Origin: Rhodanobacter sp.
GTDB lineage: Bacteria; Pseudomonadota; Gammaproteobacteria; Xanthomonadales; Rhodanobacteraceae
Length of the DNA stretch: 32,120 bases
Direction: 5' to 3'
Assembly: GCA_004298505.1 (NCBI GenBank)
Contig: SCRO01000088.1
Coordinates: forward strand, 1-32,120
The stretch's first letter is position 1; the number at the start of each line of letters is the position of its first letter. The position numbers and the translations under genes are program-made. The notes beneath the pieces are model-generated. The model made no database searches. It was not told the origin of the DNA and was given only the letters and a program-made list of their open reading frames with translations. Below, in pieces: positions 2,982 to 32,120 of the stretch.

Positions 2982-4004
2982 TCATCCGGGTCGGGCGTTC
3001 ATGGCGCGGCGTTCTGCGCCGGGCGGGATGCCGAACTGTTCCCGATAGCGGCGTGTGAAGTGCGCCACCGATGCAAAACCGCAGGCCGCGGCGATATTGA
3101 TGATCGCTTCCCCGGTGCCAAGCATCAATTGACGCGCGCGTGCGAGGCGCAGTTCGAGACAGTAGGCACCGGGCGTGCATTGCAGATATTCATTGAAGAG
3201 CCTTTCGAGCTGGCGCGCGGAAAGGTTCACGTGGCGGGCGAGTTCGTCGACGCTCAAGGGCTCTTCGAGATTGCTTTCGATCAAGGCGGCGGCCTCGATC
3301 AGCTTGGGTTGGCCCGTGCCGATGCGCTGGCGCAACGGCACACGCTGGGTGTCGCCGGTTGAGCGGATGCGTTCGCACACCATCAACTCGGCGGCCATCG
3401 CGGCCAGCTCATCGCCGTCCGCTTGCCGGCGGATCAAGTTGAGCATCATGTCGACCGGGGCAATGCCGCCGCTGCAGGTGTAGCGGTCCCGGTCGATTTC
3501 GTAGAGCCGTGTCGACACCGCTATTTTCGGGAAGTCGGCCAGGAATCGGCTCGCGTCCTCCCAGTGCAGAGTGCATCGATAGCCGTCGAGCAGGCCAGCC
3601 TTGGCCAACCAGAAGCTGCCTGTACATATGCCACCCAGCGCCGTTCCGCGGTGCGCCATGTCGCGCAGCCAGTGCAGATGTGCGCGCTCGATTCGGGGCG
3701 GGATGGGGTTCGACCCACACACAAAGAGTGCGTCGAGCTGCGGGGTGTCGGCCATCGAAAAGTCGGGTTGCACGGCGACCCCGTTGCTCGAGCGAGTCAG
3801 TTGGCCATCGACCGAAATCGTGTGCCAGTGGTAGCGCACCCCGTGGTCACACCGGTTGACCATGCGTAGTGGCTCAGTTGCGGAGGCAAAGCCGATCAGC
3901 GTGAAACCCGGAACCAGCAAGAACCCGTAGCGTAGCGGACTATCCGGGCGACCGCCCCTGGTCGTGGCTGGCGTGTCCTGACCATTTATTCGAGATTGTT
4001 TCAT
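2982..4004 (-). CDS. GlxA-type AraC-family transcriptional regulator (creatinase-junction copy 1)
   Basis: This 340-residue regulator has an N-terminal DJ-1/PfpI-like amidotransferase-fold domain (about 25-205; GICTGSFWLAKAGLLDG marks the nucleophile-elbow region). A C-terminal AraC double helix-turn-helix follows (about 225-330; LSVDELARHVNLSARQLERLF and the second motif ending GFASVAHFTRRYREQFG). The family includes GbdR, SouR and CdhR, which sense betaine, sarcosine or carnitine derivatives. It is transcribed away from a regulatory region that, in a related copy at 13 kb, faces creatinase. I infer that it controls creatinine/creatine genes. It is the only intact one of three copies: the second is a pseudogene (6033-6608) and the third a remnant of about 20 codons (13001-13063). 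Confidence 0.88.
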   Translation of the reverse strand: MKQSRINGQDTPATTRGGRPDSPLRYGFLLVPGFTLIGFASATEPLRMVNRCDHGVRYHWHTISVDGQLTRSSNGVAVQPDFSMADTPQLDALFVCGSNPIPPRIERAHLHWLRDMAHRGTALGGICTGSFWLAKAGLLDGYRCTLHWEDASRFLADFPKIAVSTRLYEIDRDRYTCSGGIAPVDMMLNLIRRQADGDELAAMAAELMVCERIRSTGDTQRVPLRQRIGTGQPKLIEAAALIESNLEEPLSVDELARHVNLSARQLERLFNEYLQCTPGAYCLELRLARARQLMLGTGEAIINIAAACGFASVAHFTRRYREQFGIPPGAERRAMNARPG

Positions 4005-4315
4005 GACTTCGTTTTCAGGCTAGTTAACGTCGCGCTGGGATAACTTTGACGGCGAATGCTTACGATACTCTTGATCAGCCTCAGCGCTACCGCAAAAGTC
4101 GCGCGCCGGGAATCAAAACCGATTATGGGCGGGGAAGCAATACGTCTCACATGTGCTTGCGATAGTCGCTAGCGCATCGCCGTCGGATGAACGTCCGCAG
4201 TCGAAGCCATATCTGGCGTCACCGCGCGCATGCCCCTGCGTCTCGACGCGTTCAGGAAGCCGCACCTATCCCGCTACCCGGCCATCAGCAACCCAGGCAA
4301 TGCCAGAAGTCTCAC
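4005..4315. promoter_or_regulatory. Divergent regulatory region, copy 1
   Basis: This lies between the intact regulator and a broken creatinase start. It shares several blocks with 6609-6924 and 13064-13369. Block A at 4005-4032 contains GACTTCG and GGCTAGTT. Block B at 4145-4169 begins TCTCACATGTGCTTGCGATA. Block C at 4203-4218 reads GAAGCCATATCTGGCG. Block B starts 171 bases before the old creatinase ATG, compared with 172 in copy 3. No clear sigma-70 pair could be fixed by eye. The region now precedes the MFS gene at 4514. The blocks are candidate operators or promoter elements for the adjacent GlxA-type regulator. Confidence 0.6.
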
Positions 4316-4468
4316 ATGTCCGATCACGCAGCATCGAGGACTACGCGGGTTTCCCGTTCACGTATTTCAACAGGTTTTACACCATGGCCGTCACGGCCGT
4401 GACACGGTCGCGGTTAGCACCAATATCGATGCCGATATGCCGTGGCAGCGCGGCTGCGGCGAAAACAC
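4316..4468 (+). pseudogene. Creatinase remnant, copy 1
   Basis: The first six codons (ATGTCCGATCACGCAGCA) match the start of the intact creatinase at 13370. About 170 bases are then missing. The match resumes at about 4340 with a sequence encoding GFPFTYFNRFYTMAVTA, compared with DFLFTYFGRFYAMVVTA at residues 66-82 of creatinase. It runs through the equivalents of ISANIDAGMPW and GYGEN, and ends near 4468. The reading frame is broken several times. The ribosome-binding site GGAG seen before the intact gene is AGAAG here. The MFS gene starts 45 bases later, so this remnant is now the 5' leader of another gene. Confidence 0.85.
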
Positions 4469-4513
4469 GAAGCAAATTGCGAGACGGCGTTAGATGCAAC
4501 GCAAGGCTCAACA

Positions 4514-5803
4514 ATGAGTGGTGAGCACGTGAGCAACGCGATGCCAGCACTTGGCAAATCGGTGTGGATGCTGTGCATTGCGCTGTTCCTGGTTGCGTAT
4601 GCCGCGCAGACCGTGTCACCGGTGATGCTGTTCTATACGATCGACCTGCAGTTGTCGACGACGGACCTGACCTTGTTCTTTACCGTCTATGCGGTCGGCC
4701 TGATGATCGCGTTCCTTGTCGGCGGCCCCCAGTCGGACAGGCGCGGCCGCAAGTCCATCGTCCTGCCGTCCACCGTGCTGCTGGTGCTCGCGCTGCTGGC
4801 GCTGCTGGGTGCCGCGCTCTGGGGTGAACGCATGATCTTCATTGCACGGTTCATCCAGGGGGTCACCAGCGGTGCGGTCTTCTCCGTGGGCACCGTCTGG
4901 TTGCGCGAGCTGGCTGGGACAAGGAACGCGGCACGTGCGTCAATGCTGGCCGGTGGCGTCATGGCAGCCGGGTTTGCCGTGGGTCCGTTCGTTTCAGGCG
5001 CCCTGGTGGAATGGGCCCCGTGGCCCAGAACCCTCTCCTTCATCATCGCGCTGATCATGGTGCTGGTCGCGATCATGATCCTGCGCGCGCTGCCCGAGAC
5101 CATGACCGGCTATCGTTCAACCCGGGTTCGAATCGGGCTGCCAAAAGGCACGGCAACCGGATTCGCCTGGTATCTCGTTCCCTGCGGACTGCTGGTCTAT
5201 ACGTTCACGATGCTGTCGCTGATCGCATTTCCGCTCCAGCTTGGCAAGGCAGGCTTCGTACAGATCTACTTCATCCTCGGGGTCAGTGCGCTGCTCGTGC
5301 AGGGGTTTGCGGCGCTGGCCACCCTCTGGGCCATGCGGCTCGGTCCCGGCCATGCCGGCTGGATGGCCGGCCTGTGCGGCGCGCTGGGCTGCGCGCTCGG
5401 CTACCTGGCGGTGCAACCCGGCAACTGGTTGTGGGTGATCCCCGCATCCGCAGTGATCGGCCTGGCCAACGGCCTGTCGATAGCGGCCGGTGTCACGGTC
5501 TCGGACATGCTGGCCCCTGCGGATCAACGGGGCGCGCTGATCTCGCTGTTCTACGTCGTGGTGTATGCCGGCTACTCCAGCCCCACCGTGCTGTCGCTCA
5601 TCTGGGGCAGCCGGACGATGGAGAAGGGCAGCACGATCGTCGCGCTCGGCATGGTTGCCGTTGTGATCATGGCGATCCTGGCCAGTGCCGGCCGCAGGGT
5701 GATATTCCGCCAAAATACCGGGAGCAGCCAAGTTCCGCCGTTCGCGCCGAGAATTTCCGGAGGTACAGCCAACAAATTCAATGAAGTCAACGAGTTACGA
5801 TGA
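4514..5803 (+). CDS. MFS transporter
   Basis: This is a 429-residue major facilitator with about 12 hydrophobic segments. The loop 2-3 signature is GGPQSDRRGRKS (about residues 75-86), close to the MFS GxxxDRxGRR motif. I choose ATG 4514, which has AAGG 7 bases upstream; a longer frame back to 4442 would run into the creatinase remnant. The last 35 or so residues after the final membrane segment are polar and look like an unrelated tail (RQNTGSSQVPPFAPRIS...), possibly because the original end was lost. It sits directly behind regulatory region copy 1. The substrate is unknown; creatine, sarcosine or a related compound is an inference from position only. Confidence 0.8.
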   Translation: MSGEHVSNAMPALGKSVWMLCIALFLVAYAAQTVSPVMLFYTIDLQLSTTDLTLFFTVYAVGLMIAFLVGGPQSDRRGRKSIVLPSTVLLVLALLALLGAALWGERMIFIARFIQGVTSGAVFSVGTVWLRELAGTRNAARASMLAGGVMAAGFAVGPFVSGALVEWAPWPRTLSFIIALIMVLVAIMILRALPETMTGYRSTRVRIGLPKGTATGFAWYLVPCGLLVYTFTMLSLIAFPLQLGKAGFVQIYFILGVSALLVQGFAALATLWAMRLGPGHAGWMAGLCGALGCALGYLAVQPGNWLWVIPASAVIGLANGLSIAAGVTVSDMLAPADQRGALISLFYVVVYAGYSSPTVLSLIWGSRTMEKGSTIVALGMVAVVIMAILASAGRRVIFRQNTGSSQVPPFAPRISGGTANKFNEVNELR

Positions 5804-6032
5804 CCGTCGAGCCTATTTCGGTAGCGTCGTGTGGTGTCACGCGTTAACGTTATTTTGTATTCCGGATGATTGACACAAGCCCCGATGAGCACACACGATA
5901 CAAGAATAACCTGGAAGTATAAATGGCCAGACGCTCAAGCTGGCATGCGCGGGATGCGGGAATGTCACGTTCATCCGCCGGGTGATCCCTACAGCCGCGT
6001 GGAACCAGGCGCCGTATGGATCTGGCCGAACC
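5804..6032. other. Gene-free region between MFS gene and regulator pseudogene
   Basis: No gene is recognised. The stretch lies between the stop of the MFS gene and the point near 6033 where similarity to the regulator begins. It probably contains a rearrangement junction, because the C-terminal half of the regulator copy is missing exactly here. No transposase remnant was identified. Confidence 0.4.
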
Positions 6033-6608
6033 AGCTCGCGGAAATCAGCATCATGTCAACCGAAGCGATGCCGCCGTTGCAGGCGTAGCGGTCTCGGTCG
6101 GTCTCGTACAGCCGTGTCGACGCCGTAACTTTTGGGAAGTCGACCAGGAATCGCTTCGCGTTCTCCCAGTACAGAGTGCGCCGACAGCCATCGAGCAGGC
6201 CAGCCTTGGGCAACCAGAAGCTGCCTGCACATGTTCCACCCGGTGCCGTTCCGAGATACGCCATGTGCGCAGTCATTGGAGATGTGTGCGTTCGATTCAG
6301 CGCGCGATGGGGGTCGGTCCGCGCACAGAGAGTGCTTCGAACGGCGGGGTATCGGCCATCGAGTAGTCGAGCTGCACGGTGACTCCGTTGCTCGAACGCG
6401 TCGGTTTGCCATTGGCTGACATCGTATACCACCGGTACTACTCGCCACGGCCGCACTTGTTGACCATGCGCAGTGATTCCGCCGCGGCCGCCAAGCCGCT
6501 CAGGGCGAACCCGGGAACCAGCAGGAATATAGTGCAGTGCATCATCCGCGCGGCTGCTTGCCTGCAACGTGGATGGAGTACCCCGACCATTGTCGGCAGT
6601 TGATTCAC
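6033..6608 (-). pseudogene. GlxA-type regulator pseudogene, copy 2
   Basis: Read from 6608 leftward, this is a decayed copy of the regulator at 2982-4004. The start codon is GTG in place of ATG (6606-6608). The first 56 codons align without gaps, including FLLVPGF and SLRMVN. Codon 57 (arginine in the intact gene) is TAG at 6438-6440. Beyond it the frame continues (YRWYTMSANGKPTRSSNGV), then shifts. A later frame gives GGTCAGSFWLPKAGLLDG and DRYACNGGIASVDMM. Similarity stops near 6033, so the whole AraC helix-turn-helix part is gone. The product cannot be a working regulator. Confidence 0.9.
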
Positions 6609-6924
6609 GACTTCGTTTTTAGGCTAGTTAACGTCGTATTTGGACGAAATCGAAGTCGGATTTTTACGATAGTCTCAATTGGTCCCAGCGCAGCCACAAA
6701 AGTTGCGCGTCGGGGAACAGAAGCGATCTTGGGCGGGGAAGCCATTAAATCTCACATGTGCTTGCGATAATCGCTGGCGCATTCTCTCCCGATGACGGTT
6801 TTCGGTTGAAGCCCTATCTGGCGACATCGGGCGTCCGTACCAGCGAATCGTAACGTGTTCAGGAAGCCGCACTCAACTTGTTATACCCAATCATCAGAGG
6901 CCGAGACTAACGTCAGGAGTCGCA
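6609..6924. promoter_or_regulatory. Divergent regulatory region, copy 2
   Basis: This carries the same ordered blocks as copies 1 and 3: block A at 6609-6636, block B at 6750-6774 and block C at 6808-6823 (one change, CTATCTGG). It also has TTCAGGAAGCCGCAC, as in copy 1, and the GTCAGGAGTC ribosome-binding sequence before the lost creatinase start. Both flanking genes are dead, yet block B differs from copy 1 at only one base in 25. The next gene downstream is the porin at 7157, so the region could drive the porin, permease and creatininase genes. Confidence 0.6.
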
Positions 6925-7015
6925 CACCGCCGATTATGCAACGGCAATACCAGCAACCTCCATCGCCGAGCTCGAACGCCAGCTGTTTGCACAAAGCCAG
7001 GAAAGCCGCTTGGCT
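6925..7015 (+). pseudogene. Creatinase N-terminal remnant, copy 2
   Basis: The sequence aligns to the first 30 or so codons of the creatinase at 13370. It retains CCAGCAACCTC, then an equivalent of IAELERL, then TTTGCACAA. The start codon is ACC in place of ATG, and no open frame continues. After about 7015 similarity is lost. It is a decayed gene fragment, now part of the leader of the porin gene. Confidence 0.75.
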
Positions 7016-7156
7016 GCGTGATCGCCACGCTCAGGAGGGCTAGCCTCGCCTCTGAGTGTTCTTTAATGCAGAGCGTTTTTAGCTTGAAGGTCCGTTATAC
7101 GCAAGTATCAATAATCTCCAGGCTTTTGTGGCCCCACTAATCAAGGGACAAATCAC

Positions 7157-8461
7157 ATGCATCACAAGCTCGTCATGACCGTAATGATCGCCTCCTTGGC
7201 CTGCGCCGCCATACCTGCACTGGCCGAAAGCCCGGACTATGTGCATACCACGCTCACTGGAGACTGGGACGGTGCGCGCACACGGATGTCCGACCTGGGT
7301 ATCGATCTGAATCTGTACTACACCGGTGACTTTGCCTACAACCTCACTGGCGGCGACAGGCATTCAGGCGCCTATGCTTCCGAGTTCGACTTCGACGGCG
7401 CATTTGACCTGGAGAAATTGGTGGGTTGGAAAGGCGGCTCGTTTCATACTGAAGTAGCCAATTTCCACGGCCAATTGCTGGATGCGAAGGTCAATCTTGG
7501 ATCTCTGATGGACACTCAGGAGATCTATGACGGTCATGGCACCTATCTGTCGAATTTCTATCTCGAACAATCCCTATGGAATGGCCTGGTCGACATCAAG
7601 TACGGCCGCATGGACTTCAACGCCAGCTTCTATCCAACGTTCGCCAACCTCAATTTCCAGGGCCTGAGTTTCTACGGGCCTCAGCCGGGTTTGATGGTTC
7701 CTGATTTGGTAGACTGGCCAACAAGCGCTATCGGAGAGGTGATCACGATCAAGCCGTCAGAGGCGTGGGACTTCAAAGTCGGCAACTTCGCGGTGCAGCC
7801 TAACAACTTTGTCCCTAATGATCTCAAAGTGCAAAATCGGGGTCATCGTGTAGGAAACATGACGGTGGGCGAGCTCGACTTCTTCACTACCTTGGCTGGC
7901 GGATCGAAGGATGCACCGCTGTCAGGAACCTGGGCGCTGGGTGGATGGCACAACACTGCACCCAAGCCGGACCTGTTCCTTGACATCAATGGCCTGCCGC
8001 AGGCGCTCACTGGCGCAACTCCGCTGATGCGCGGCAGTACGAGTGGCGTCTATGTGACCGGTCAACAACAGGTCACCCGTAATGCAGCAGGTGGTGGCCT
8101 TACCCTGTTCATGAATTTGGTCCAAGCCGATTCTGAAGTGGACTTCATCGACCAAATGTCTTCCGTAGGGATGCTTTACGCAGCGCCTTTTGCGTCACGA
8201 CCGAACGATATCGTTGGTGTTGTGCTCGGACGCAATCATGTCAGCAGTCGCGTCGCTGACGCCAATCGCATTATCAACGCCAGTAGCTTCGTGGCAGTGC
8301 CGGTGCCAAGCTCAGAGTACCTCTTGGAGCTCAACTACACAGCGAGCTTGTACCGCGGGATCACGCTGATGCCAAACCTGCAATATGTTCGTCATCCTGG
8401 CGGCACGAAAGCAAATCGTGATTATACCGTACTCGGTGCGCAGCTAATCGTGTCATTCTAG
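7157..8461 (+). CDS. OprB-family outer-membrane porin
   Basis: The product has 434 residues. A signal peptide (HHKLVMTVMIASLACAAIPALA) is probably cut after A23. The mature start has LTGDWDGARTRMSDLGIDL, typical of the carbohydrate-selective OprB family, and the protein ends LIVSF with a terminal phenylalanine. AAGGGA lies about 10 bases before the ATG. OprB proteins form monomeric 16-stranded pores for sugars. Because the permease and creatininase genes follow on the same strand, I infer that this one passes creatinine or creatine across the outer membrane. Base composition is more AT-rich than in the genes beyond 14 kb. It lies behind regulatory copy 2. Confidence 0.85.
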   Translation: MHHKLVMTVMIASLACAAIPALAESPDYVHTTLTGDWDGARTRMSDLGIDLNLYYTGDFAYNLTGGDRHSGAYASEFDFDGAFDLEKLVGWKGGSFHTEVANFHGQLLDAKVNLGSLMDTQEIYDGHGTYLSNFYLEQSLWNGLVDIKYGRMDFNASFYPTFANLNFQGLSFYGPQPGLMVPDLVDWPTSAIGEVITIKPSEAWDFKVGNFAVQPNNFVPNDLKVQNRGHRVGNMTVGELDFFTTLAGGSKDAPLSGTWALGGWHNTAPKPDLFLDINGLPQALTGATPLMRGSTSGVYVTGQQQVTRNAAGGGLTLFMNLVQADSEVDFIDQMSSVGMLYAAPFASRPNDIVGVVLGRNHVSSRVADANRIINASSFVAVPVPSSEYLLELNYTASLYRGITLMPNLQYVRHPGGTKANRDYTVLGAQLIVSF

Positions 8462-8774
8462 ACAGTGGGACGTGAATGACCCGGTGTTGCGCTAGAACGA
8501 ACATCGAAGCGCAGTATTTGTAATAGTGACGATGAAGCTCTGATTTGCCCCGTTGTGTCCATGATTGAACAAGTTCATCGTGAAGATCCCGCATCGTTTT
8601 TCCATATGGGCCGGAGCACAACTTTATCAAGAAGTAGAGATGCGGGGAGTTACGTGCATACTCGACGCCAGCTCGAGCACGCAGTTCAACAGGATCCCCG
8701 AAGCGACGCCATCGAGCTGATAGTGCGCGAACGCAGATACCCAATTTTCGTAGGGCCTTGACGGAGACACGATA
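8462..8774. other. Gene-free leader between porin and NCS1 permease
   Basis: No gene is recognised. Two perfect 8-base inverted repeats with long loops are present: ACGATGAA/TTCATCGT at 8529-8536 and 8574-8581, and CCCGCATC/GATGCGGG at 8588-8595 and 8639-8646. They could fold as consecutive stems in the RNA ahead of the permease gene. Neither matches a riboswitch class that I know. GGAG about 8 bases before 8775 is the permease ribosome-binding site. Confidence 0.35.
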
Positions 8775-10202
8775 ATGCCACAGAGCGCAACTACACAACA
8801 CGACACAGATGAGTACGGGACCGACCAGGTTCCCCACGACAAGCGTGAGTACAACTTTTTTCATCAGTTTTCGACCTGGTTCGGCTCGGGCGTCAACACC
8901 GGGTCATGGTATTTCGGCGGCATGGCTGCGGCCCTCGGGATGGTGTTCGTATTCCAATACAGCTTGATTTATCTGCCCCTGATGATGATCCCGTGGGCAA
9001 TGCTCGGGTGGATCGCCTACAAGCACGGCGCGACTACCGTGGTCAGCTCCACCGCCGCGTTCGGAGTTTCGGGGCGGCGCCTCGTCGGTTGGGGTGAGTT
9101 TTTCGGCATGATCGGGTGGCCCAGTGTCAATACCTACATCGCCGCAATATCGCTGACCTACGTATTTCATGCCATGTTTGGATGGGCTGCGTTCGGGTCT
9201 CCCGGATCGACATGGCCGCTAGTCGCTGGCATTGTAACTACCTCAGTCGCGCAAGGCGTCGCGGTGGTGATCGGCCAGCGCGCCATCAAGTACCTCGAGA
9301 TGGTGTCAATGGTTCTTTTGGTGGCGCTTGGTATATGGGAGTCAATCGTCGTTTTGCAGCATTGGGATTTCAACAAGGTGATGTCGGTGAGGATGCCGAC
9401 GCACTCACACTCCGTGGCTTTTTACATTGACCTCGCCTTCGGTTTCGCCTGGGGTTGGGCCATGATCGGAGACTTTGCCCGGCTCGCGAAGAGCGGCGCG
9501 GGTGCAACGCTTGGTAGCTGGCTTGGCATCAACATCGGCCAAGGCTGGTTCATGATAATTGGTGGCCTGGGTGTGGTCGGCGTGATGCTGCGAACGGGTA
9601 CTTATGATCCCAACAATTCGGACCCGAGTTCGATCGTCGCTTCGCTCGGGCTGGGAACGATCGCCTTTCTGGTGGTCTTTTTCGCAACTCTAAGTACCAA
9701 CATTACGGTACTGTATGGCTCCGGAATAGGATTGGTGGGTGCCACCAAGTCTAAATCACCCAAGAAGTACCTGATATTCATTGCGATCCTGCAGTTCTTC
9801 ATGTGCTTTCTCCCCCTGATGTTTGCCAGTTTCGTTGACTATTTCGAGTTTTTTCTTGGAATCTTGGGCGGTATTTTCATTCCCATGTGGACCTTGATCT
9901 TCGTCGATTACTTTATCGTACGCAAACGCGACCTCAAGGACGAAGATCTGTTTGCCGGAGCGAACCGCGACGGTTCCACGAAGAGTCGCCTGGGTGACTG
10001 GAACGTCGCCGGATGGATATCCGCGATCCTCGGTTTGAGCGTGTTCTATCTTCTGAACTATGGTCTGACCGGCATTGCTGCAGTTACGACTGCGTCGTTC
10101 CCGGCGATTGCGGTGACCGCAGGTTGTTATCTGGTTTTGACATTAATGTTTGGCATGGGCAAACATGCGCGTGCCAAGGTGCTTCCGGTCGCAGCGAAGT
10201 AG
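8775..10202 (+). CDS. NCS1-family permease (cytosine permease-like; probable creatinine uptake)
   Basis: This is a 475-residue inner-membrane protein with about 12 membrane segments, related to CodB and other NCS1 (nucleobase:cation symporter-1) carriers. An N-terminal polar tail (about 1-40) leads into WFGSGVNTGSWYFGG, matching the family's first helix with its substrate-site glycines. The C-terminal end is KHARAKVLPVAAK. Creatinine is a small cyclic ureide-like molecule similar in shape to cytosine. The creatininase gene starts only 49 bases downstream. Creatinine import is therefore a strong inference, but other ureides or bases are possible. Confidence 0.87.
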   Translation: MPQSATTQHDTDEYGTDQVPHDKREYNFFHQFSTWFGSGVNTGSWYFGGMAAALGMVFVFQYSLIYLPLMMIPWAMLGWIAYKHGATTVVSSTAAFGVSGRRLVGWGEFFGMIGWPSVNTYIAAISLTYVFHAMFGWAAFGSPGSTWPLVAGIVTTSVAQGVAVVIGQRAIKYLEMVSMVLLVALGIWESIVVLQHWDFNKVMSVRMPTHSHSVAFYIDLAFGFAWGWAMIGDFARLAKSGAGATLGSWLGINIGQGWFMIIGGLGVVGVMLRTGTYDPNNSDPSSIVASLGLGTIAFLVVFFATLSTNITVLYGSGIGLVGATKSKSPKKYLIFIAILQFFMCFLPLMFASFVDYFEFFLGILGGIFIPMWTLIFVDYFIVRKRDLKDEDLFAGANRDGSTKSRLGDWNVAGWISAILGLSVFYLLNYGLTGIAAVTTASFPAIAVTAGCYLVLTLMFGMGKHARAKVLPVAAK

Positions 10203-10251
10203 GTCGCGATGCGTGGATCTAGGCGTTTTAGGCAGTTAATCGAGGTGCAAG

Positions 10252-11019
10252 ATGGATAGCGTGGATATCGCGGACCTGGCGTGGCCAGTGTATGACGACC
10301 GCGTCAAGAAAGGTGCCGTTGTGCTGATCCCCGTCGGGGCGTTGGAACAACATGGCCCGCACATGAGCATGAATCCGGACGTCCTGCTGCCGACGGCGAT
10401 CGCCAGGAAGGTGGCCCAAAATATCGGCGGTCTGGTCGCACCGGCCATTGCCTATGGCTACAAGTCACAGCAAAAGAGCGGGGGCGGAAACCATATGCCC
10501 GGTACCACCAGCTTGGACGGCTGGACGCTGACTTGTGTTGTCCGCGACGTCCTGAGGGAGTTGGCCAGGCACGGGGTCCGCAGAACCGTTATGGTAAACG
10601 GTCATTTTGAAAATTCGGCATTCCTTGCCGAGGGTATCGATTTGGCATTGAGGGATCTGGGCTCGCACAATATCAAGGACTTCCGCTGCATCGTGCTGTC
10701 GTATTGGGACTTTATCGACCAGAAGACGATTGACACGATCTACCAGGGGACCTTTCCGGGTTGGGCAGTCGAACATGGCGGTGTCTTGGAGACGTCTTTG
10801 ATGCTCCACCTGTATCCGAATCTGGTGAACATGGACTTGGTGATAGATCACCCCCCCGCAACGTTTCCACCGTACGATTTCTTCCCGATCAAACCTGAGT
10901 GGACTCCGTCATCGGGTTGTCTGTCGTCGGCCAAAAGCGCCGCAGCAACTCACGGTAAATTGATCTTCTCGGTTTGCGTCGAGGGAATATCCGGCGCGCT
11001 GCGGACAGCGTTCGACTGA
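10252..11019 (+). CDS. crnA: Creatininase (creatinine amidohydrolase)
   Basis: This 255-residue enzyme converts creatinine plus water reversibly to creatine (EC 3.5.2.10). All metal ligands known for the Pseudomonas putida enzyme (E34, H36, D45, H120, E122) are present with an offset of two: E32 and H34 in ALEQHG, D43 in NPDVLLP, H118 and E120 in NGHFEN. Long family-specific stretches are conserved, such as YGYKSQQKSGGGNHMPGTTS and HPPATFPPYD, which separates it from other creatininase-superfamily amidases. GAGG about 8 bases before ATG is the ribosome-binding site. It closely follows the NCS1 permease and is probably in one transcript with it. Confidence 0.96.
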   Translation: MDSVDIADLAWPVYDDRVKKGAVVLIPVGALEQHGPHMSMNPDVLLPTAIARKVAQNIGGLVAPAIAYGYKSQQKSGGGNHMPGTTSLDGWTLTCVVRDVLRELARHGVRRTVMVNGHFENSAFLAEGIDLALRDLGSHNIKDFRCIVLSYWDFIDQKTIDTIYQGTFPGWAVEHGGVLETSLMLHLYPNLVNMDLVIDHPPATFPPYDFFPIKPEWTPSSGCLSSAKSAAATHGKLIFSVCVEGISGALRTAFD

Positions 11020-11138
11020 CCGGTTTTGGTTCGTACCAACCTGTTGAGCGTTGTTGACAAGGAGCTGACAGGCCCGCGTCCTAGCCGCAGCTACAGGGAC
11101 TTTGTAGTACGTGAGCCTTTTGCACATGGAGGGTACGA

Positions 11139-11186
11139 ATGCTGTGTACAAGTGGGTGCGAGCGCCTTGAGGCTGAATCGCCATGA
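11139..11186 (+). CDS. Possible 15-residue leader peptide
   Basis: A very good ribosome-binding site (GGAGGG, 5 bases from ATG) precedes a short frame reading MLCTSGCERLEAESP. Its stop codon overlaps the ATG at 11183 as ATGA, so translation could be coupled to the antiporter gene. There is no homology support. It may be chance. Confidence 0.3.
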   Translation: MLCTSGCERLEAESP

Positions 11187-12757
11187 TCCGCGGCTCCTTG
11201 GGGGTTACCAGGCCAGTTGTCGCTACCCCCCGCCACTGGCTGCGCTGGCTAACCCACCATGTCGAAGGTTTGCAATGTATTCGAGATAGCAAGGTGGCTC
11301 GTCGGACCGCTGAAGTTACGGCCCGCCGGCGCCGACCTCGTCTCGCGATGACACTTGCTGCAATCATATTGTTCTGCGTTGGCACCACACCAGCGGTGGG
11401 GGCCACGACCACGCAACTGGTCGGAGCAAACATGTCTTTGCTGTGGGTACTGCCATTCGGAGGCCTTCTAATTTCGATTGCAACCGGCCCGGTGCTCTAT
11501 CCGCGTTTGTGGGAGCACCATTATGGGAAATTTGCGTTCGGGTGGAGTGCGCTCGTCGTGGTTCCACTTTTAGTCTGGGCTGGCCCATCGCTGGCGGTTG
11601 CCGCGCTTGTGCATACGCTCTTGCTCGAATACGTACCTTTTATCATCCTGCTATTGGCACTCTATACTGTCGCTGGCGGTGTGCTGGTTGAGGGCAATAT
11701 GCGTGGGACGCCGTTGACGAACGTCGGAATCCTCGTGGTCGGGGCGTTACTTGCCTCTCTGGTTGGGACTACCGGCGCCGCGATGATCATGATCAGGCCA
11801 CTGATCCGTGCGAACCGCAATCGACCGTTCAACGCGCATGTCGTCATCTTTTTCATCTTCGTCGTTTGCAACATTGGCGGTGCGCTGACGCCACTTGGTG
11901 ACCCGCCCCTTTTTGTCGGATTTCTGCGTGGCGTTGGATTCTTCTGGCCATTACCGCATTTGCTGGCGGAGACTGCGACGGTCACGGCGCTGATACTCAT
12001 TGTTTTCGTCGTAATCGACGGCTATTTATGCGCCCGAGAGAGGCGTCAAATGGCGACCGAGAGGCCGCTAGCGAAATCACGTGCCCGCCTCTTGGGTTGG
12101 GTGAACCTGCCGCTATTCGGTGGCATTATCGCGGCCATATTGTTATCAGCAATATGGAACCCCGGTATTTCATTCATGGTGCACGGCTCCGAGGTCAAAC
12201 TTCAGAACGTGACGAGGGACGCCATCATGATTGCGATGGCCATTCTGTCGTTGGTGCTCAGTCCCAAGGAATGTCATCGCGTCAACGATTTCAGGTGGGG
12301 TCCGATCATCGAAGTTGCGGCGCTGTTTGCCGCCATTTTCATCTGTCTCGTCCCGGTGGGTGCGATGCTGCACGCCGGTCAGCAGGGCTCGCTGTCATCG
12401 CTGTTTGCATTGGTGACGCGTGCTGATGGGTCGGCCGATCCACTGGCCTATTTCTGGCTCTCTGGCGCGCTGTCATCGTTCCTTGATAACACGCCCACGT
12501 ATCTCGTGTTTTTCGACCTGGCCGGGGGCAACCCACAGTACCTCATGAGTACTGGCGCGGCGGTTCTGGCGGCGATCTCGACAGGTGCGGTTTTCATGGG
12601 TGCCAACACATACATCGGCAACGCGCCAAACTTCATGGTCTATGCGATCGCGCGGGATGCTGGCGTGCGGATGCCCCATTTTTTTGGATACGTGTTGTGG
12701 TCCGTAGGTATCCTCATCCCCATCTACCTGTTTACGGGATGGCTGTTCTTCACGTGA
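11183..12757 (+). CDS. Sodium:proton antiporter / CitMHS-like ion transporter
   Basis: This is a polytopic membrane protein of the ion-transporter superfamily (NhaD/CitMHS/ArsB-like). Family-like stretches include VGTTGAAMIMIRPLIRAN, FIFVVCNIGGALTPLGDPPL and FLDNTPTYLVF, with the paired TPxGDPP and SxxLDNxPT re-entrant loops. The start is uncertain. ATG 11183 is coupled to a short upstream frame, but the first 55 residues are poorly hydrophobic. A signal-like segment MTLAAIILFCVGTTPAVGA begins at 11348, preceded by a basic run, so the true start may be GTG 11293 or ATG 11348. In this setting it may balance sodium or protons or carry an organic anion; the substrate is unknown. Confidence 0.82.
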   Translation: MIRGSLGVTRPVVATPRHWLRWLTHHVEGLQCIRDSKVARRTAEVTARRRRPRLAMTLAAIILFCVGTTPAVGATTTQLVGANMSLLWVLPFGGLLISIATGPVLYPRLWEHHYGKFAFGWSALVVVPLLVWAGPSLAVAALVHTLLLEYVPFIILLLALYTVAGGVLVEGNMRGTPLTNVGILVVGALLASLVGTTGAAMIMIRPLIRANRNRPFNAHVVIFFIFVVCNIGGALTPLGDPPLFVGFLRGVGFFWPLPHLLAETATVTALILIVFVVIDGYLCARERRQMATERPLAKSRARLLGWVNLPLFGGIIAAILLSAIWNPGISFMVHGSEVKLQNVTRDAIMIAMAILSLVLSPKECHRVNDFRWGPIIEVAALFAAIFICLVPVGAMLHAGQQGSLSSLFALVTRADGSADPLAYFWLSGALSSFLDNTPTYLVFFDLAGGNPQYLMSTGAAVLAAISTGAVFMGANTYIGNAPNFMVYAIARDAGVRMPHFFGYVLWSVGILIPIYLFTGWLFFT

Positions 12758-13000
12758 GCATAATCACCGTGAGTCGTCGCTGAATCTGGTGCGTAGGGTG
12801 AGTCGTGGAAGACGACGTGCTGGATTGGAATGGGCTTGCCGAAGCACTCAACCACGGAGTACACCAGTAGCTCGAACGATACCGTTTTGCTCTTCCAGCC
12901 AGGCTGTTCCAAAACGTGCTGACGGTACCTATGCGTAAGAAACACGCCAGCTGCTGCCACACGCCATTGAGGTCAAAGGTGCGGCGTTTCTGCGCGAGCG
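12758..13000. other. Gene-free region replacing the regulator in copy 3
   Basis: No recognisable gene was found. In copy 1 the body of the GlxA-type regulator stands here; in this copy the sequence after about 20 codons of regulator is unrelated. Short open frames on the minus strand (for example 12724-12960) have no family features I can name. Confidence 0.4.
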
Positions 13001-13063
13001 TTAGCGATCACTTGCCTGCATAGCGACAGGCGTGTACCGATCTTTTATCCGTGACTGATTCAT
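13001..13063 (-). pseudogene. GlxA-type regulator N-terminal remnant, copy 3
   Basis: Read leftward from 13063 the sequence encodes MNQSRIKDRYTPVAM and then a stop near 13001, compared with MKQSRINGQDTPATT at the start of the intact regulator. The ATG and the flanking block A are in the same relative position as in copy 1. Only about 20 codons survive. Confidence 0.75.
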
Positions 13064-13369
13064 GACTTCGCTTTCAGGCTAGTTTACGTCGCGTCAAGAC
13101 GAATTTGACGGGCTACGCTTACGGTACGCTCATCTCGGTGCTGCCACGAATGTCGCGCTCCGGGAACCAGGACGAATCATTCGCGGGTCGGAATATGTCT
13201 CACATGTGCTTGCGATAGTCGCCAGCGTATCCCCGTCTGATGAAAGTCAGTAGTCGAAGCCATATCTGGCGTCGCCATGCACATGCACCGGCGCCGCTAC
13301 TTGTTCAGGTAGCCACGCTCACCCACTCACCCACTTATCAACCGCCAAGACCAACGTCAGGAGTCTCAC
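13064..13369. promoter_or_regulatory. Divergent regulatory region, copy 3 (creatinase promoter region)
   Basis: This is upstream of intact creatinase. It shares block A (13064-13091), block B (13198-13222) and block C (13256-13271) with the copies at 4 and 6.6 kb. GTCAGGAGTCTCACATG supplies the creatinase ribosome-binding site. The sequence GTCTCACATGT occurs twice, once in block B and once at the start codon. The block order and spacing to the ATG are kept, so I take it as the functional promoter/operator region, though exact promoter boxes are not resolved. Confidence 0.65.
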
Positions 13370-14629
13370 ATGTCCAATCACGCAGCAGCAACACCAGCAA
13401 CCTCTATCGCGGAGCTTGAACGCCTGAAGGTTTTGCACAATGGCGAGAAAGTCCCGCTGACATTCTCCGATACCGAGCTCAAACGCCGCATTACCGGCTT
13501 GCGCTCGATCATGGCCGCGAAGCAACTCGATGCGGTGGTGCTGACCAGCTGGCACTCGATCAAGTATTACTCGGATTTCCTGTTCACATACTTCGGCCGG
13601 TTCTACGCCATGGTCGTCACGGCTGATGACACGGTCACGATCAGCGCGAATATCGACGCGGGTATGCCGTGGCGGCGTGGTTACGGCGAGAACATCGTCT
13701 ATACCGACTGGCGCCGTGACAACTACATTCACGCCATTCAGGAAGCGCTGCGCCAGCGCAAGGTTAAGGTCCGCCGGCTCGGTGTCGAAGAAGACACGCT
13801 GCCAGTGGACAACCACAACAAGATTCAGGCCGCCTTTTCGGATGCAACGTTGGTCGATGTGGCGCAGGACGCGATGCGTCAGCGCATGATCAAGTCGCCC
13901 GAGGAGATCGAAGTAATCAAGCATGGTGCCCGCATCGGCGACCTCGGCGGCGAGGCGATCAAGGCCGCGATCCGCGAGGACATCAGCGAGTACGAGGTGG
14001 CGCTGATCGGTACCGAGGCGATGGTGCACGAGATCGCTCGTACTTTTCCCAACTCCGAAATCCGCGACACCTGGGTCTGGTTCCAGTCCGGGATCAATAC
14101 CGATGGCGCGCACAACTGGCCCACCACCCGCAAGCTGCAGCGCGGGGACATCCTCTCGTTGAACTGCTTTCCGATGATCTCGGGCTACTACACGGCGCTG
14201 GAACGTACCCTGTTCCTGGGCGCGCCAGACCAGCGCTCGCTGGAGTTGTGGAAGATCAATGTCGAGGTGCACAACCGCGGCATGGAGTTGATCAAACCCG
14301 GCGCGGTGTGCAAGGACATCGCTGCGGAACTGAACAAGATCTACGTCAAGCACGGCCTGCTGGCGAACCGGACCTTCGGCTACGGGCACTCGTTCGGCGT
14401 GCTGTCACACTACTACGGTCGCGAGGCGGGCCTGGAACTGCGCGAAGACATCGATACCGTGCTGCAACCGGGCATGGTCGTGTCGATGGAGCCGATGATT
14501 GCCGTGATGGAAGGCCAGCCCGGGGCCGGCGGCTATCGCGAGCACGACATCCTGGTGATTGGCGAAAACAGTGTCGAGGACATCACCAAGTTCCCGTATG
14601 GCCCGGAGCACAACATCATCTCCTGCTAG
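13370..14629 (+). CDS. Creatinase (creatine amidinohydrolase)
   Basis: This 419-residue enzyme hydrolyses creatine to sarcosine and urea (EC 3.5.3.3). It has the metal-free 'pita-bread' fold of peptidase family M24 with an N-terminal creatinase domain. The residues that act in P. putida creatinase (H232, E262, E358) are found at H248 (DGAHNWPT), E278 (YYTALERTLF) and E374 (VVSMEPMIAV), an exact offset of 16. Lengths agree with the family (about 403-420). ATG 13370 has CAGGAG 8 bases upstream. It is the only intact copy of three; fragments occur at 4316 and 6925. The gene is followed by a strong hairpin at 14756-14790. Confidence 0.96.
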   Translation: MSNHAAATPATSIAELERLKVLHNGEKVPLTFSDTELKRRITGLRSIMAAKQLDAVVLTSWHSIKYYSDFLFTYFGRFYAMVVTADDTVTISANIDAGMPWRRGYGENIVYTDWRRDNYIHAIQEALRQRKVKVRRLGVEEDTLPVDNHNKIQAAFSDATLVDVAQDAMRQRMIKSPEEIEVIKHGARIGDLGGEAIKAAIREDISEYEVALIGTEAMVHEIARTFPNSEIRDTWVWFQSGINTDGAHNWPTTRKLQRGDILSLNCFPMISGYYTALERTLFLGAPDQRSLELWKINVEVHNRGMELIKPGAVCKDIAAELNKIYVKHGLLANRTFGYGHSFGVLSHYYGREAGLELREDIDTVLQPGMVVSMEPMIAVMEGQPGAGGYREHDILVIGENSVEDITKFPYGPEHNIISC

Positions 14630-14930: not shown

Positions 14931-16244
14931 ATGACCGACGTATCCGTAAAATACGGTAGCCCACCTGTTCAGGCGGACGCTGCCACTCTCAAGAAGGTAG
15001 CCTTGGCAAGTTTCATCGGCAACTTCATCGAATGGTTCGACTATGCATCCTATGCCTATCTTGCCACCATCCTCGCCACAGTTTTTTTCCCGGAGATTTC
15101 GCCTTCGGCAGGTCTGCTGGCGACGTTTGCGGTATTTGCCCTGTCGTTTATCATTCGGCCGATAGGCGGGATTGTCTGGGGGCACTATGGCGACATCATC
15201 GGGCGCAAGCTCGCCTTGTCCCTGTCGATCATCATCATGGCATCGGCCACGTTCCTGATCGCGTTCCTGCCAGGCTACGACCGGATTGGTGTCTGGGCAG
15301 CGGTGCTGTTGCTGCTATTGCGTCTGATCCAGGGCTTTTCTGCCTCGGGTGAATATGCGGGCGCGGCCGCTTTTCTGGTGGAATATGCTCCCCATCGCAA
15401 ACGCGGATTGTTTGCCAGTATCGTGCCGGCCAGTACGGCTGCCGGATTATTGTTCGGGTCACTGCTGGTCACCGGCATGCACCAGTTCCTGAGCGCGGAG
15501 CAGATGCACTCGTATGGCTGGCGCCTGCCATTTTTGCTGGCGCTGCCGTTGGGTTATATCGGTCGTTACATCCGTATCCATCTCGAGGATTCACCCAAGT
15601 TCCGTGCGCTGGAGAAATTGGAGAAGGTGGCGCATGCGCCGATCTCGCTGCTGCTGTCCAAGCACAAGCGGTCGCTGATCATCGCGATCGGGGTAACGAT
15701 GTTGAACGCGGTGGGGTTCTATACCATCCTGACCTATATGCCGACCTATATGTCGGTGCAACTGCATGTGAGCGAAGCAGAATCCTTCCTGTCCACGACC
15801 ATTGCGCTGGTGGCCTACATCTTTTTCATTTTCCTGATGGGCACGCTGTCCGACCGTTTCGGTCGCAAGACCATGCTGATAGCGGCCTCCGTGGTGTTCG
15901 TGGTGGTCTCCGTGCCGTTGTTCAGCCTGCTCGGGACTGCCGGGTTCATCGGTATTATCTTGATCCAGATTGCATTCGGGTTCATGTTGACCATGAACGA
16001 CGGTACGCTGCCGTGTTTTCTCGCCGAGATATTCCCCACCAACGTACGCTATAGCGGCTTTGCGCTCAGCTTCAATCTGGCCAATGCCATTTTCGGTGGC
16101 ACGGCGCCGTTCGTCGCCACCTGGCTGATCCAGGTCAGCGGCAACAAACTGGCGCCGGCGTGGTACCTGGTGGCGGCAGCGATTATTGCCTTGGTCGCCA
16201 TGGTGGCGAGCAAGGAGACCTCGCACGAGCCTTTACCGGATTGA
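14931..16244 (+). CDS. MFS transporter, metabolite:H+ symporter (ProP/MHS-like)
   Basis: This is a 437-residue carrier with 12 predicted membrane segments. The opening FIGNFIEWFDYASYAYLA and the loop GHYGDIIGRK are hallmarks of the MHS branch, which includes ProP, ShiA and KgtP. The second-half repeat has GTLSDRFGRKT. ATG 14931 has GGGGAG 6 bases upstream; the longer frame from 14793 lacks such a site. Members move betaine, proline, dicarboxylates or shikimate. Lying between creatinase and the sarcosine operon, it is a good candidate for creatine, sarcosine or betaine uptake, which is inference. Confidence 0.85.
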   Translation: MTDVSVKYGSPPVQADAATLKKVALASFIGNFIEWFDYASYAYLATILATVFFPEISPSAGLLATFAVFALSFIIRPIGGIVWGHYGDIIGRKLALSLSIIIMASATFLIAFLPGYDRIGVWAAVLLLLLRLIQGFSASGEYAGAAAFLVEYAPHRKRGLFASIVPASTAAGLLFGSLLVTGMHQFLSAEQMHSYGWRLPFLLALPLGYIGRYIRIHLEDSPKFRALEKLEKVAHAPISLLLSKHKRSLIIAIGVTMLNAVGFYTILTYMPTYMSVQLHVSEAESFLSTTIALVAYIFFIFLMGTLSDRFGRKTMLIAASVVFVVVSVPLFSLLGTAGFIGIILIQIAFGFMLTMNDGTLPCFLAEIFPTNVRYSGFALSFNLANAIFGGTAPFVATWLIQVSGNKLAPAWYLVAAAIIALVAMVASKETSHEPLPD

Positions 16245-17229: not shown

Positions 17230-17389
17230 GGAGCCTGTCGGGCGTTGGTAGTCGAGGCGAGAATTCGGCTATGCAAGGACAGATTTTTGACAATTCGCTG
17301 GCCCATAGTGGCGATGGGCCAAGAAGCGGCAGGAATATGGACCGCACAGGTGGATTCGCAAACCGACCGCGTAAAGTCCGACAGGCTCC
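17230..17389 (+). mobile_element. MITE-like element with terminal inverted repeats (middle copy)
   Basis: The ends GGAGCCTGTCGG (17230-17241) and CCGACAGGCTCC (17378-17389) are perfect 12-base inverted repeats. The left part (to about 17343) aligns with the repeats at both window ends, including GTCGAGGCGAGAATTCGGC and an internal palindrome GGCCCAT/ATGGGCC. It is 160 bases long with no coding capacity. No convincing target duplication flanks it. It lies in the divergent region between purU and a regulator, 30 bases from the purU start, so it may affect their transcription. Confidence 0.7.
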
Positions 17390-17491: not shown

Positions 17492-18547
17492 ATGGACAAG
17501 GGTCCAGTACGTTTTGGTTTTATCCTGCTGCCGTATTTCACGCTGACTGCGTTCTCGGGTCTGCTGGATGTGTTGCGCCTGGCCGGTGACGAGGGCGACA
17601 ACAGTCGCCCGGTGCGTTGCACCTGGCAGGTCATCGATGAGACCCTGGTGCCGGTGCGCTCCAGCAGTGGCATCCAGGTCGTGCCGTCCGAGCACCTGGG
17701 CGATCCTTCGCGCTTCGATTATGTCGTTGTCGTGGGCGGGTTGCTGCATACCGGGACGCCGGTCAGCAACGGGCTGCTCGAGTTCATCCGCAACGCGGCA
17801 CGACAGAATGTTGCGCTGGTGGCCGTATGCACGGGGGCATTTACGCTGATGCGGGCCGGCGTACTCGATCAGCACCGGGTGTGCGTGAGCTGGTTTCACT
17901 ACTGGGATTTCCTCGAACAGTTTCCCGCGACCGATCCGCACAATATCGTGGCCGACCGCCTGTACGTGTTCGATCGACAGCGGATCACCTGCTCGGGCGG
18001 ACGCGCCTCGATCGATGTGGCAGCCGAGATCCTCAGGCGGCATATGGATGCGTCCATCGTCGACAAGGCATTGCGTATCCTGCAGGTAGACGGTTCGAAT
18101 CGGTCCGAGACAGTACAGCCCCTGCCGCCGGGTATCGAGCCTACTGCACATCCGGTCGTGCGCCGCGCGGTGTTGTTGATGGAGCAACACATGGGGCAGG
18201 CGCTGAGTCTGGATCAGCTGGCGGCCCAGCTGAATATCTCGGTGCGTCAGCTTGAGCGACTGTTCAAGGAATGCACTGGCCAGAGCCCGCAGGCGTACGG
18301 ACGCGGCATGCGGCTGCGACTGGCCGCCTGGCTGCTGACCCACTCCAAGAAGACCATTTCGGTGATCGCGGCGACCTGCGGATTCTCCGATGCGTCGCAC
18401 CTGGGTCGGGAGTTCCGTTCGACGTTCGGCATACCGCCCAGTGTCTGGCGCGCGCGCGCGCAGTTGCCCGCTTCGCTGTTGCCCGAGCAGGTACCGCCCC
18501 CCGATGGCATAAACGAGGTTTTTCCGAACCGCCGGGAATTCTACTGA
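17492..18547 (+). CDS. GlxA-type AraC-family regulator (SouR/GbdR-like)
   Basis: This 351-residue regulator has a DJ-1/PfpI-like domain at about 5-190; [17 protein letters not shown] is the nucleophile-elbow region, with Cys in place. An AraC HTH domain follows at about 220-325 ([23 protein letters not shown] and [20 protein letters not shown]). I chose ATG 17492, which has GAGG 9 bases upstream. It precedes soxBDAG in the same direction. In Pseudomonas, relatives such as GbdR and SouR activate glycine-betaine and sarcosine genes, so control of the sox operon by sarcosine or dimethylglycine is likely. A small inverted repeat GGTGT/ACACC at about 17409-17425 could be an operator half-site pair, which is unproven. 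Confidence 0.9.
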
Positions 18548-25330: not shown

Positions 25331-25438
25331 CTGGCTCTTGATCACATCTTGCATGGATGCAGAACAGCCGCGCCGTAGGGCGGGCACTGCCCACCGGCCC
25401 TTGCCTCGGCATTCAATCGAGATCTGATCAAGAGACAG
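25331..25438. mobile_element. 108-bp element with Tn5/IS50-like ends
   Basis: The right end read inward is CTGTCTCTTGATCAGATCT, identical to the 19-base inside end of IS50 as I remember it. The left end is CTGGCTCTTGATCACATCT. The interior (for example GCGGGCACTGCCCACCGGC) has no coding capacity. TCCCCAAGG flanks the left end (25322-25330), and CCCCCAAGG lies two bases past the right end (25441-25449), a possible 9-base target duplication with a slip. One end of a related copy is at 125-162. This looks like a MITE mobilised by an IS4-family transposase. Confidence 0.6.
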
Positions 25439-25474
25439 CTCCCCCAAGGAGAGGGCTTCAGACAAAACACCGAA

Positions 25475-31893: not shown

Positions 31894-32002
31894 GGCGGAC
31901 TCCTGCGGGTAGTACGGTGGGTGGCGTGGCAGTGACGTTGTTGACGTACGATACTCTGCAGCATTGTCCGGGTTCAGGTCGCGCGGGGCAACGTGTGCTG
32001 CG

Positions 32003-32120
32003 CTAGGAGTCTGTCGGACTTTGGTGGTCGAGGCGAGAATTCGGCTGTGCGAGGACAGATTTTCGACGGTTCGCCGGCCCATGGTGGTTCCATGGGCCAA
32101 GAATCGGCGGAAATATGGAC
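32003..32120 (+). repeat. Dispersed TIR repeat, right terminal copy (truncated by window edge)
   Basis: This is an exact inverted copy of 2-119 and is in the same orientation as 17230-17389. It starts with the element end GGAGTCTGTCGGAC at 32006 and is cut by the window edge inside the element. It lies 110 bases upstream of the ETF-QO start. Confidence 0.8.

Follow-up and report, generated by a model that had tools for sequence, protein, structure and literature searches.

Three copies of a divergent regulator-creatinase junction with probable reciprocal gene loss in a creatinine-utilisation cluster of Rhodanobacter

The stretch of DNA analysed here, which we call the window, comprises 32,120 nucleotides (nt) and is one contig (SCRO01000088.1) of the 139 that make up the 3.78 Mb genome of a Rhodanobacter sp. 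(GCA_004298505.1). Matches to Pfam, to NCBIfam and to relatives of solved structure identify it as a creatinine-to-glycine island, in which a GlxA-type regulator gene is followed in order by genes for an MFS transporter, an OprB porin, an NCS1 permease, creatininase, a CitMHS transporter, creatinase and a ProP-like transporter, and then by those for a PurU-like protein (Formyl_trans_N), a second GlxA regulator, sarcosine oxidase and serine hydroxymethyltransferase. The first regulator and the creatinase are also the two sides of a divergent junction, with the genes pointing away from each other across approximately 310 nt, and this architecture is present three times in the window: at 3442-4467 (copy 1), 6047-7010 (copy 2) and 13029-14629 (copy 3, extending into the intact creatinase). 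The original prediction, made from the letters alone, had proposed three such copies that arose by duplication and decayed in complementary fashion, leaving the working regulator and the working enzyme on different copies nearly 9 kb apart; in fact, the starts of the two intact genes lie 9.4 kb apart.

We compared the copies by BLASTN of the window against itself and by MAFFT alignment. Copies 1 and 2 align over 831 nt (3442-4265 with 6047-6872, 76.5% identity, E 1e-170), copies 1 and 3 over 366 nt (3970-4333 with 13029-13387, 75.7%, E 3e-64) and copies 2 and 3 over 414 nt (6601-7010 with 13056-13458, 68.8%, E 1e-37), and a further 136 nt pair the creatinase parts of copies 1 and 3 (4333-4467 with 13559-13694, 78.7%, E 3e-25). 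These similarities exceed chance and the copies are homologous; short chance matches, the alternative named with the original prediction, are contradicted by alignments of hundreds of bases with E values down to 1e-170, and the three-copy junction stands on long and specific similarity. Self-BLASTN revealed no fourth copy in the window, a search of the genome with the intergenic DNA of copy 1, in which 12 of 30 candidates were scored, led to the three copies and to no other place, and junction homology in the other gaps of the window never beat shuffled sequence, at least 18 of 200 shuffles doing as well. Identity between copies 1 and 2 is uneven, 85% at 3442-3661 and 71.7% at 3662-4004 (Fisher p 0.0002), which may reflect old constraint or gene conversion; the best kept 30-nt windows of this pair lie in the regulator remnant (29/30 at 3586-3593) and next at island B (28/30), a conserved intergenic block described below.

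The three copies differ in what they have kept. In copy 1 the regulator (2982-4004, minus strand) is an intact open reading frame of 340 codons, and its product carries both a DJ-1/PfpI domain (PF01965, 9.8e-13) and an HTH_18 domain (PF12833, 1.3e-23) in one chain, above gathering scores, as expected of a GlxA-type member of the AraC family. The NCBIfam model for GbdR, the choline/betaine regulator, scores it at 400.8 bits, below the equivalog cut-off of 480, so that it is a GbdR-like relative only. Beyond the intergenic DNA of copy 1 (4005-4315), which aligns with that of copies 2 and 3, the creatinase remnant (4316-4467, plus strand) has kept its start, lacks approximately 171 nt (the equivalent of 13388-13558 in copy 3) and then runs into a frameshift. 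Copy 2 has lost both genes: its regulator remnant (6047-6608, minus strand) contains three in-frame stops, the first at the position of codon 57, and a frameshift, and homology ends at residue 188, before the helix-turn-helix (HTH) domain; on the other side of the intergenic DNA (6609-6925), the creatinase remnant (6926-7010, plus strand) reads ACC where the other copies have their ATG start codon. Copy 3 retains an intact creatinase of 419 amino acids (aa) (13370-14629, plus strand), preceded by its intergenic DNA (13064-13369) and by the first 11-12 codons of the regulator (13029-13063, minus strand). Copies 1 and 2 were thus as originally described; for copy 3 the intact enzyme stood, but the regulator remnant is shorter than the approximately 20 codons that had been suggested. 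To the left of copy 3 (12758-13028), 18 to 71 of 200 shuffles were as good as any regulator homology, and to the right of copies 1 and 2 creatinase homology did no better, at least 18 of 200 shuffles equalling it. Different members are intact in different copies and the rest are broken, and this is the pattern of reciprocal loss.

A compact ancestral pair had been anticipated in related genomes, and it was found: a divergent regulator-creatinase pair is present in five of the nine named loci that encode relatives of the regulator, namely those of an Alcaligenaceae assembly (L039) and of four Lautropia assemblies (L040-L043). In L041 and L042 an NCS1 permease and a creatininase follow the pair, and a ProP relative lies within the cluster in L040, L042 and L043. 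The pairing also occurs in other orientations in same-class genomes (L090/L111 and L091). In another same-class genome (L083, 821-1156), a regulator 50% identical to that of the window adjoins a creatinase with a large internal gap, covering residues 205-289 and then 386-417; by its sequence, this locus suggests that creatinase loss may have taken place beside this regulator type elsewhere too. The best regulator matches were 46% in the order sample (one of 397 other genomes at E <=1e-80), 54% in the class sample (17 of 368 others at E <=1e-95) and 55% in the phylum sample (two of 397 others at E <=1e-105).

A tree of 32 regulators was built on 160 columns, with 30 of the 119 other homologues listed. 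In it, the copy 2 regulator falls into a clade of five rows (support 100/98) together with the intact regulator of copy 1 (REG1) and the homologues P0002, P0003 and P0004, and neither L039 (P0033) nor the Lautropia assemblies have their rows in this clade. Its branch is 12-fold longer than that of the intact regulator (0.66 versus 0.055). In the comparison of broken with intact copies that the original prediction had called for, the ratio of nonsynonymous to synonymous divergence (dN/dS), computed over 159 codons, is 0.39 between the regulators of copies 1 and 2, with dS approximately 0.42, versus 0.11, 0.17 and 0.20 between the intact regulator and three relatives. Because of its place in the clade, its long branch and its raised dN/dS, the copy 2 regulator is best read as a decayed paralogue that was released from constraint during some of its history, and not as a distant import. 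Approximately unbiased (AU) tests give p 0.47 for copy 2 as sister to REG1, p 0.48 for a position just outside REG1, P0002 and P0003, and p 0.31, thus not rejected, for a pairing with P0004; there is weak evidence against placing it outside all four (p 0.044). The divergence of the junctions (24-31%), taken with the regulator dS, argues that the duplication is old and not fresh. The notion of a snapshot of cluster remodelling therefore holds as far as the reciprocal decay goes, but not in the sense of a recent event.

The creatinase has creatine amidinohydrolases as its closest solved relatives (1chm_A, E 1.1e-169, residues 22-417 of 419), and its identity (EC 3.5.3.3, M24 fold), with a predicted activity that converts creatine to sarcosine and urea, is secure by sequence, as is that of the creatininase. 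Its homologues were taken as the 119 others among the best 120 of 7,980 matches. Among those listed, all are at least 79% identical to it except P0202 (611 aa, 61%), and every organism name is one that we take to be actinobacterial, Arthrobacter foremost; the identity to Arthrobacter proteins is 85-86%, and dN/dS against two Arthrobacter genes is 0.11. Among 397 other genomes sampled from the phylum, 21 matches were found, of which the highest reaches 64%, as does the best Pseudomonadota plasmid match listed; the creatinases of L039-L043 are 61-63% identical to the window enzyme, and an 85-residue fragment of the conserved core in L083 reaches 68%. In a creatinase tree of 49 rows, made by a quick method without bootstrap from 20 of the 21 phylum loci (L098, with 74 residues scored, was left out), 25 Pseudomonadota rows lie on one side of a branch with a value of 99.9 and the window enzyme lies on the other, beside 23 rows. 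These 23 of the 119 listed proteins form what we presume to be an actinobacterial group, 19 of them bearing names that we recognise as actinobacterial and four being without an organism name. Placing the window creatinase as the first branch of the Pseudomonadota side is not rejected by the AU test (p 0.517). We assign the enzyme to the actinobacterial type because of its identities (85-86% to Arthrobacter versus at most 64% over full length in the Pseudomonadota loci compared) and of the 99.9 branch, which holds the 25 Pseudomonadota rows together and leaves the window gene outside.

The remnants were inspected by eye against six actinobacterial and eight usable Pseudomonadota rows (L039-L043, L085-L087); five others (L084, L088-L091) had been read on the wrong strand and were not usable. 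The copy 1 fragment displays the actinobacterial-type signatures FTYF, VTA, MPW and GEN, and the copy 2 fragment, which is misplaced in the alignment, begins with ATSIAELER as in copy 3. Both thus look to be of the same creatinase type as copy 3, which argues that the enzyme was replaced before the junction was duplicated. Taken together, the regulator clade and the similar signatures in the remnants point to an ancestry of the copies more recent than that of the compact-pair relatives. Among named matches, the creatininase is closest to Castellaniella (78%). For the protein clusters of the creatinase (P0121) and of the creatininase (P0241), the longest contig given is 274,165 nt in each case, and that of the regulator (P0001) has none longer than the window; there may be a close relative with both enzymes but with a more diverged or lost regulator.

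In the junction alignment, the three copies agree at 203 of 346 columns. Against 10,000 column shuffles, these columns are clustered by three of four measures: the longest run (20, p 0.002), the best window of 20 columns (p 0.002) and the sum of squared runs (p 0.0009). Two blocks are conserved: island A, a candidate operator, at 4008-4032, 6612-6636 and 13067-13108 in copies 1, 2 and 3, and island B, 20 nt identical in all three, at 4145-4164, 6750-6769 and 13198-13217. With up to three mismatches, both occur in the window at exactly the three junctions, and the island B 20-mer occurs nowhere else in the whole genome. Whichever copy is used, island A finds its match at a single site in the intergenic DNA of L039; for copies 1, 2 and 3, shuffles do as well in 5, 48 and 0 of 2000 cases, and the scores are 13-19 versus 7-11 for nine control gaps of the window. 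This site lies upstream of the regulator start in L039, although the L039 regulator is at dS approximately 1.9, near saturation, from REG1. Since it was kept in all three copies and in the Alcaligenaceae junction, island A is probably part of an operator or promoter. The junction of L042 also matches copy 3 (6 of 500 shuffles as good), but at another place than island A. The promoter pattern of five relatives' junctions scored in the window copies with 75, 22 and 5 of 300 shuffles as good (copies 1, 2 and 3), and was rejected as a window promoter, the best site being elsewhere in copy 1 and its right half shifted in copy 3. Four sigma-70-like sites were found versus 4.8 expected, and the intergenic DNA of junctions 1 and 3 has no similarity to the DNA upstream of two Arthrobacter plasmid creatinases.

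Each junction is followed on the plus strand by further genes of the island. Junction 1 precedes an MFS transporter (4514-5803; PF07690, 9.1e-31). Junction 2 precedes an OprB-family porin (7157-8461; PF04966, 1.8e-70), an NCS1-family permease (8775-10202; PF02133, 1.6e-24), the creatininase (10252-11019; 1j2t, 2.5e-105), which at 357.3 bits passes the curated equivalog cut-off of 235 for TIGR04448, and a CitMHS_2-family transporter (11183-12757; PF16980, 6.3e-174). The permease substrate is probably creatinine; the creatininase adjoins a permease in L041 and L042 as well. Behind the creatinase of copy 3 lies a ProP-like MFS transporter (14931-16244; TIGR00883, 395.9 bits, below its cut-off of 443). 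The OprB-NCS1-creatininase-CitMHS block (7157-12757) is lower than its neighbours both in GC content (55-57%) and in third-position GC content (GC3; 0.64-0.71 versus 0.74-0.82). The second GlxA-type regulator (17492-18547), 36% identical to the first, adjoins the sarcosine oxidase genes, and its relatives (69-79%) lie near sox genes in L039-L042. No tRNA was found in the window, and an Rfam search gave nothing at gathering scores. At the two ends of the contig lies a repeat of approximately 120 bp, in inverted orientation (1-125 and 31997-32120, 98%); a further copy (17230-17343, 85%) separates the PurU-like gene from the second regulator. The repeat has 50 matches in the genome (40 of 107 candidates scored), of which 11 start at most seven bases from a contig's first base, and it matches itself in antisense at approximately 74%; it looks like a palindromic element, similar to miniature inverted-repeat transposable elements, at which the assembly breaks. 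The arms of a 42-nt inverted repeat (95%) lie at 121-162, just inside the left contig end, and at 25401-25442, downstream of a glyA-type gene.

The island as a whole is, on distribution, foreign to the genus and appears to be horizontally acquired. Creatinase (E <=1e-120) was found in none of 226 other family genomes sampled, the best-scoring M24 match among 59 other relatives being 24% identical (E 5e-18), and soxA (E <=1e-60) in none of 40 other genomes, 24 of them of the same genus. A cysteine-synthase-like gene (451-1401) is present in 10 of the 24 same-genus genomes and in none of the 16 others, at 75-79% identity; it is thus at home in the genus and argues against the contig being a contaminant. 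We infer that the island moved between genera, and the duplication could equally have taken place in this lineage or in the donor.

We regard as likely that a divergent module within a creatinine-utilisation cluster was duplicated and then underwent reciprocal loss. An actinobacterial-type creatinase would already have stood beside a betaproteobacterial-type GlxA regulator when the regulator-creatinase module was copied twice within the cluster, in this lineage or in its donor; redundant halves would then have been lost reciprocally, the regulator being kept in copy 1 and the enzyme in copy 3, and both being lost in copy 2. The regulator of copy 1 would probably bind the shared operator at its own junction, would activate the creatinase of copy 3 and the ProP-like transporter in trans, and might control the OprB-permease-creatininase operon from junction 2, which would bring the pathway under one regulator; copy 2 possibly has a regulatory role. 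The duplication and complementary decay that were first proposed are supported by the long similarity, the compact-pair relatives, the dN/dS values and the regulator clade. Several observations nevertheless weigh against this history. No genome with P0002-P0004 or with an intact tandem stage was found in the order, class and phylum samples, where the best regulator is 55%, and the AU tests are compatible with copy 2 as sister of REG1, as outgroup of REG1, P0002 and P0003, or as partner of P0004. Ten gaps were searched for traces of the permease, creatininase and ProP genes, such as a large tandem duplication would leave, and of OprB, and none turned up; the only matches were to the creatinase fragment already known in copy 1, which the L043 creatinase hit too, and to the start of the CitMHS2 gene itself. 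A part of the OprB-CitMHS block may, by its GC3, have been inserted separately. In the intergenic DNA, a fourth measure of clustering, the number of runs of nine or more, gave p 0.081; the unchanged columns of copy 2 alone are not clustered (p 0.46-0.90); and the four Lautropia junctions are without island A, nothing there being better than shuffles.

As to the route of copying, the gene order of L042 makes a larger tandem block attractive: it is exactly that of a block running from the divergent pair through permease and creatininase to ProP, and after duplication and random loss, one copy supplying the middle genes and the following one creatinase-ProP, it would yield the order of the window. 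We hold this route within the duplication history only tentatively, as it has to contend with the different GC3 and with the absence of any remnants of the lost middle genes or of ProP from the ten gaps, although later deletion could have removed such remnants. The GC3 of the OprB-CitMHS block also speaks for a rather different origin, in which the three junctions arrived separately from related but different clusters, as xenologues, and recombined into a mosaic. The mixture of an actinobacterial-type creatinase with named regulator and creatininase relatives that are mostly betaproteobacterial would fit such arrivals, as would a place of copy 2 outside REG1, P0002 and P0003 or with P0004. But all three junctions have one intergenic sequence and one unusual enzyme type in common, copy 2 lies inside a tight clade with REG1 and P0002-P0004, and the remnants of copies 1 and 2 look actinobacterial like the enzyme of copy 3; we thus consider independent sources, which the original prediction had named, besides chance similarity, as a finding that would refute it, quite improbable. 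Compatible with duplication and reciprocal loss, yet rather doubtful in itself, is the idea that the junction was copied or kept for its bidirectional operator, the gene remnants being by-products. Each junction does head a plus-strand operon (MFS; OprB-NCS1-creatininase-CitMHS; creatinase-ProP), and islands A and B persist in all copies despite 24-31% divergence, island A even in L039; however, protection is not significant for copy 2 taken by itself, sigma-70-like sites are no more frequent than expected, and the promoter pattern of the five relatives scores weakly in the window copies. That the junction is a dispersed cis-regulatory cassette, a bidirectional operator that heads three operons and whose gene-less copy 2 was kept as regulatory DNA, we consider unlikely; if true, one regulator would control uptake, ring opening and creatine cleavage, and a regulon would have been built by copying a promoter together with dead genes.

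Several known systems resemble the arrangement under duplication and reciprocal loss. CahR of Pseudomonas putida is a GlxA/AraC-type regulator of a creatine/creatinine cluster, and the creatinine/creatine clusters of L039-L043 have the same regulator family with creatinase adjoining, as well as permease and creatininase in L041 and L042. The window differs from these in its three copies, in the splitting of the pair over copies 9.4 kb apart and in its actinobacterial-type creatinase. Creatinase loci of Arthrobacter plasmids (NZ_CP015734.1) encode a creatinase 83% identical, close to genes for sarcosine oxidase and for an MFS transporter, but have an IclR-type regulator instead of the GlxA type, and their upstream DNA is unlike that of the window. 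In the tandem duplication-random loss model, discussed in work on mitochondrial genomes, a block is duplicated and alternate members are lost, leaving remnants behind; the window shares these three features, but here they concern a bacterial catabolic cluster and a divergent regulator-enzyme junction, and the full duplicated block cannot be reconstructed. We see in the window a well-preserved example of a known evolutionary process, not a novel type of system.

Catabolic gene clusters of bacteria are often reordered, and deletion usually removes the traces of the steps between. In this case, readable remnants allow a route to be proposed, in which an enzyme was replaced across phyla, a divergent pair was duplicated and reciprocally lost, and regulation would now act in trans from a distance. 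If the gene-less copy 2 works as a promoter, it would show how a regulon can grow by the copying of a divergent junction.

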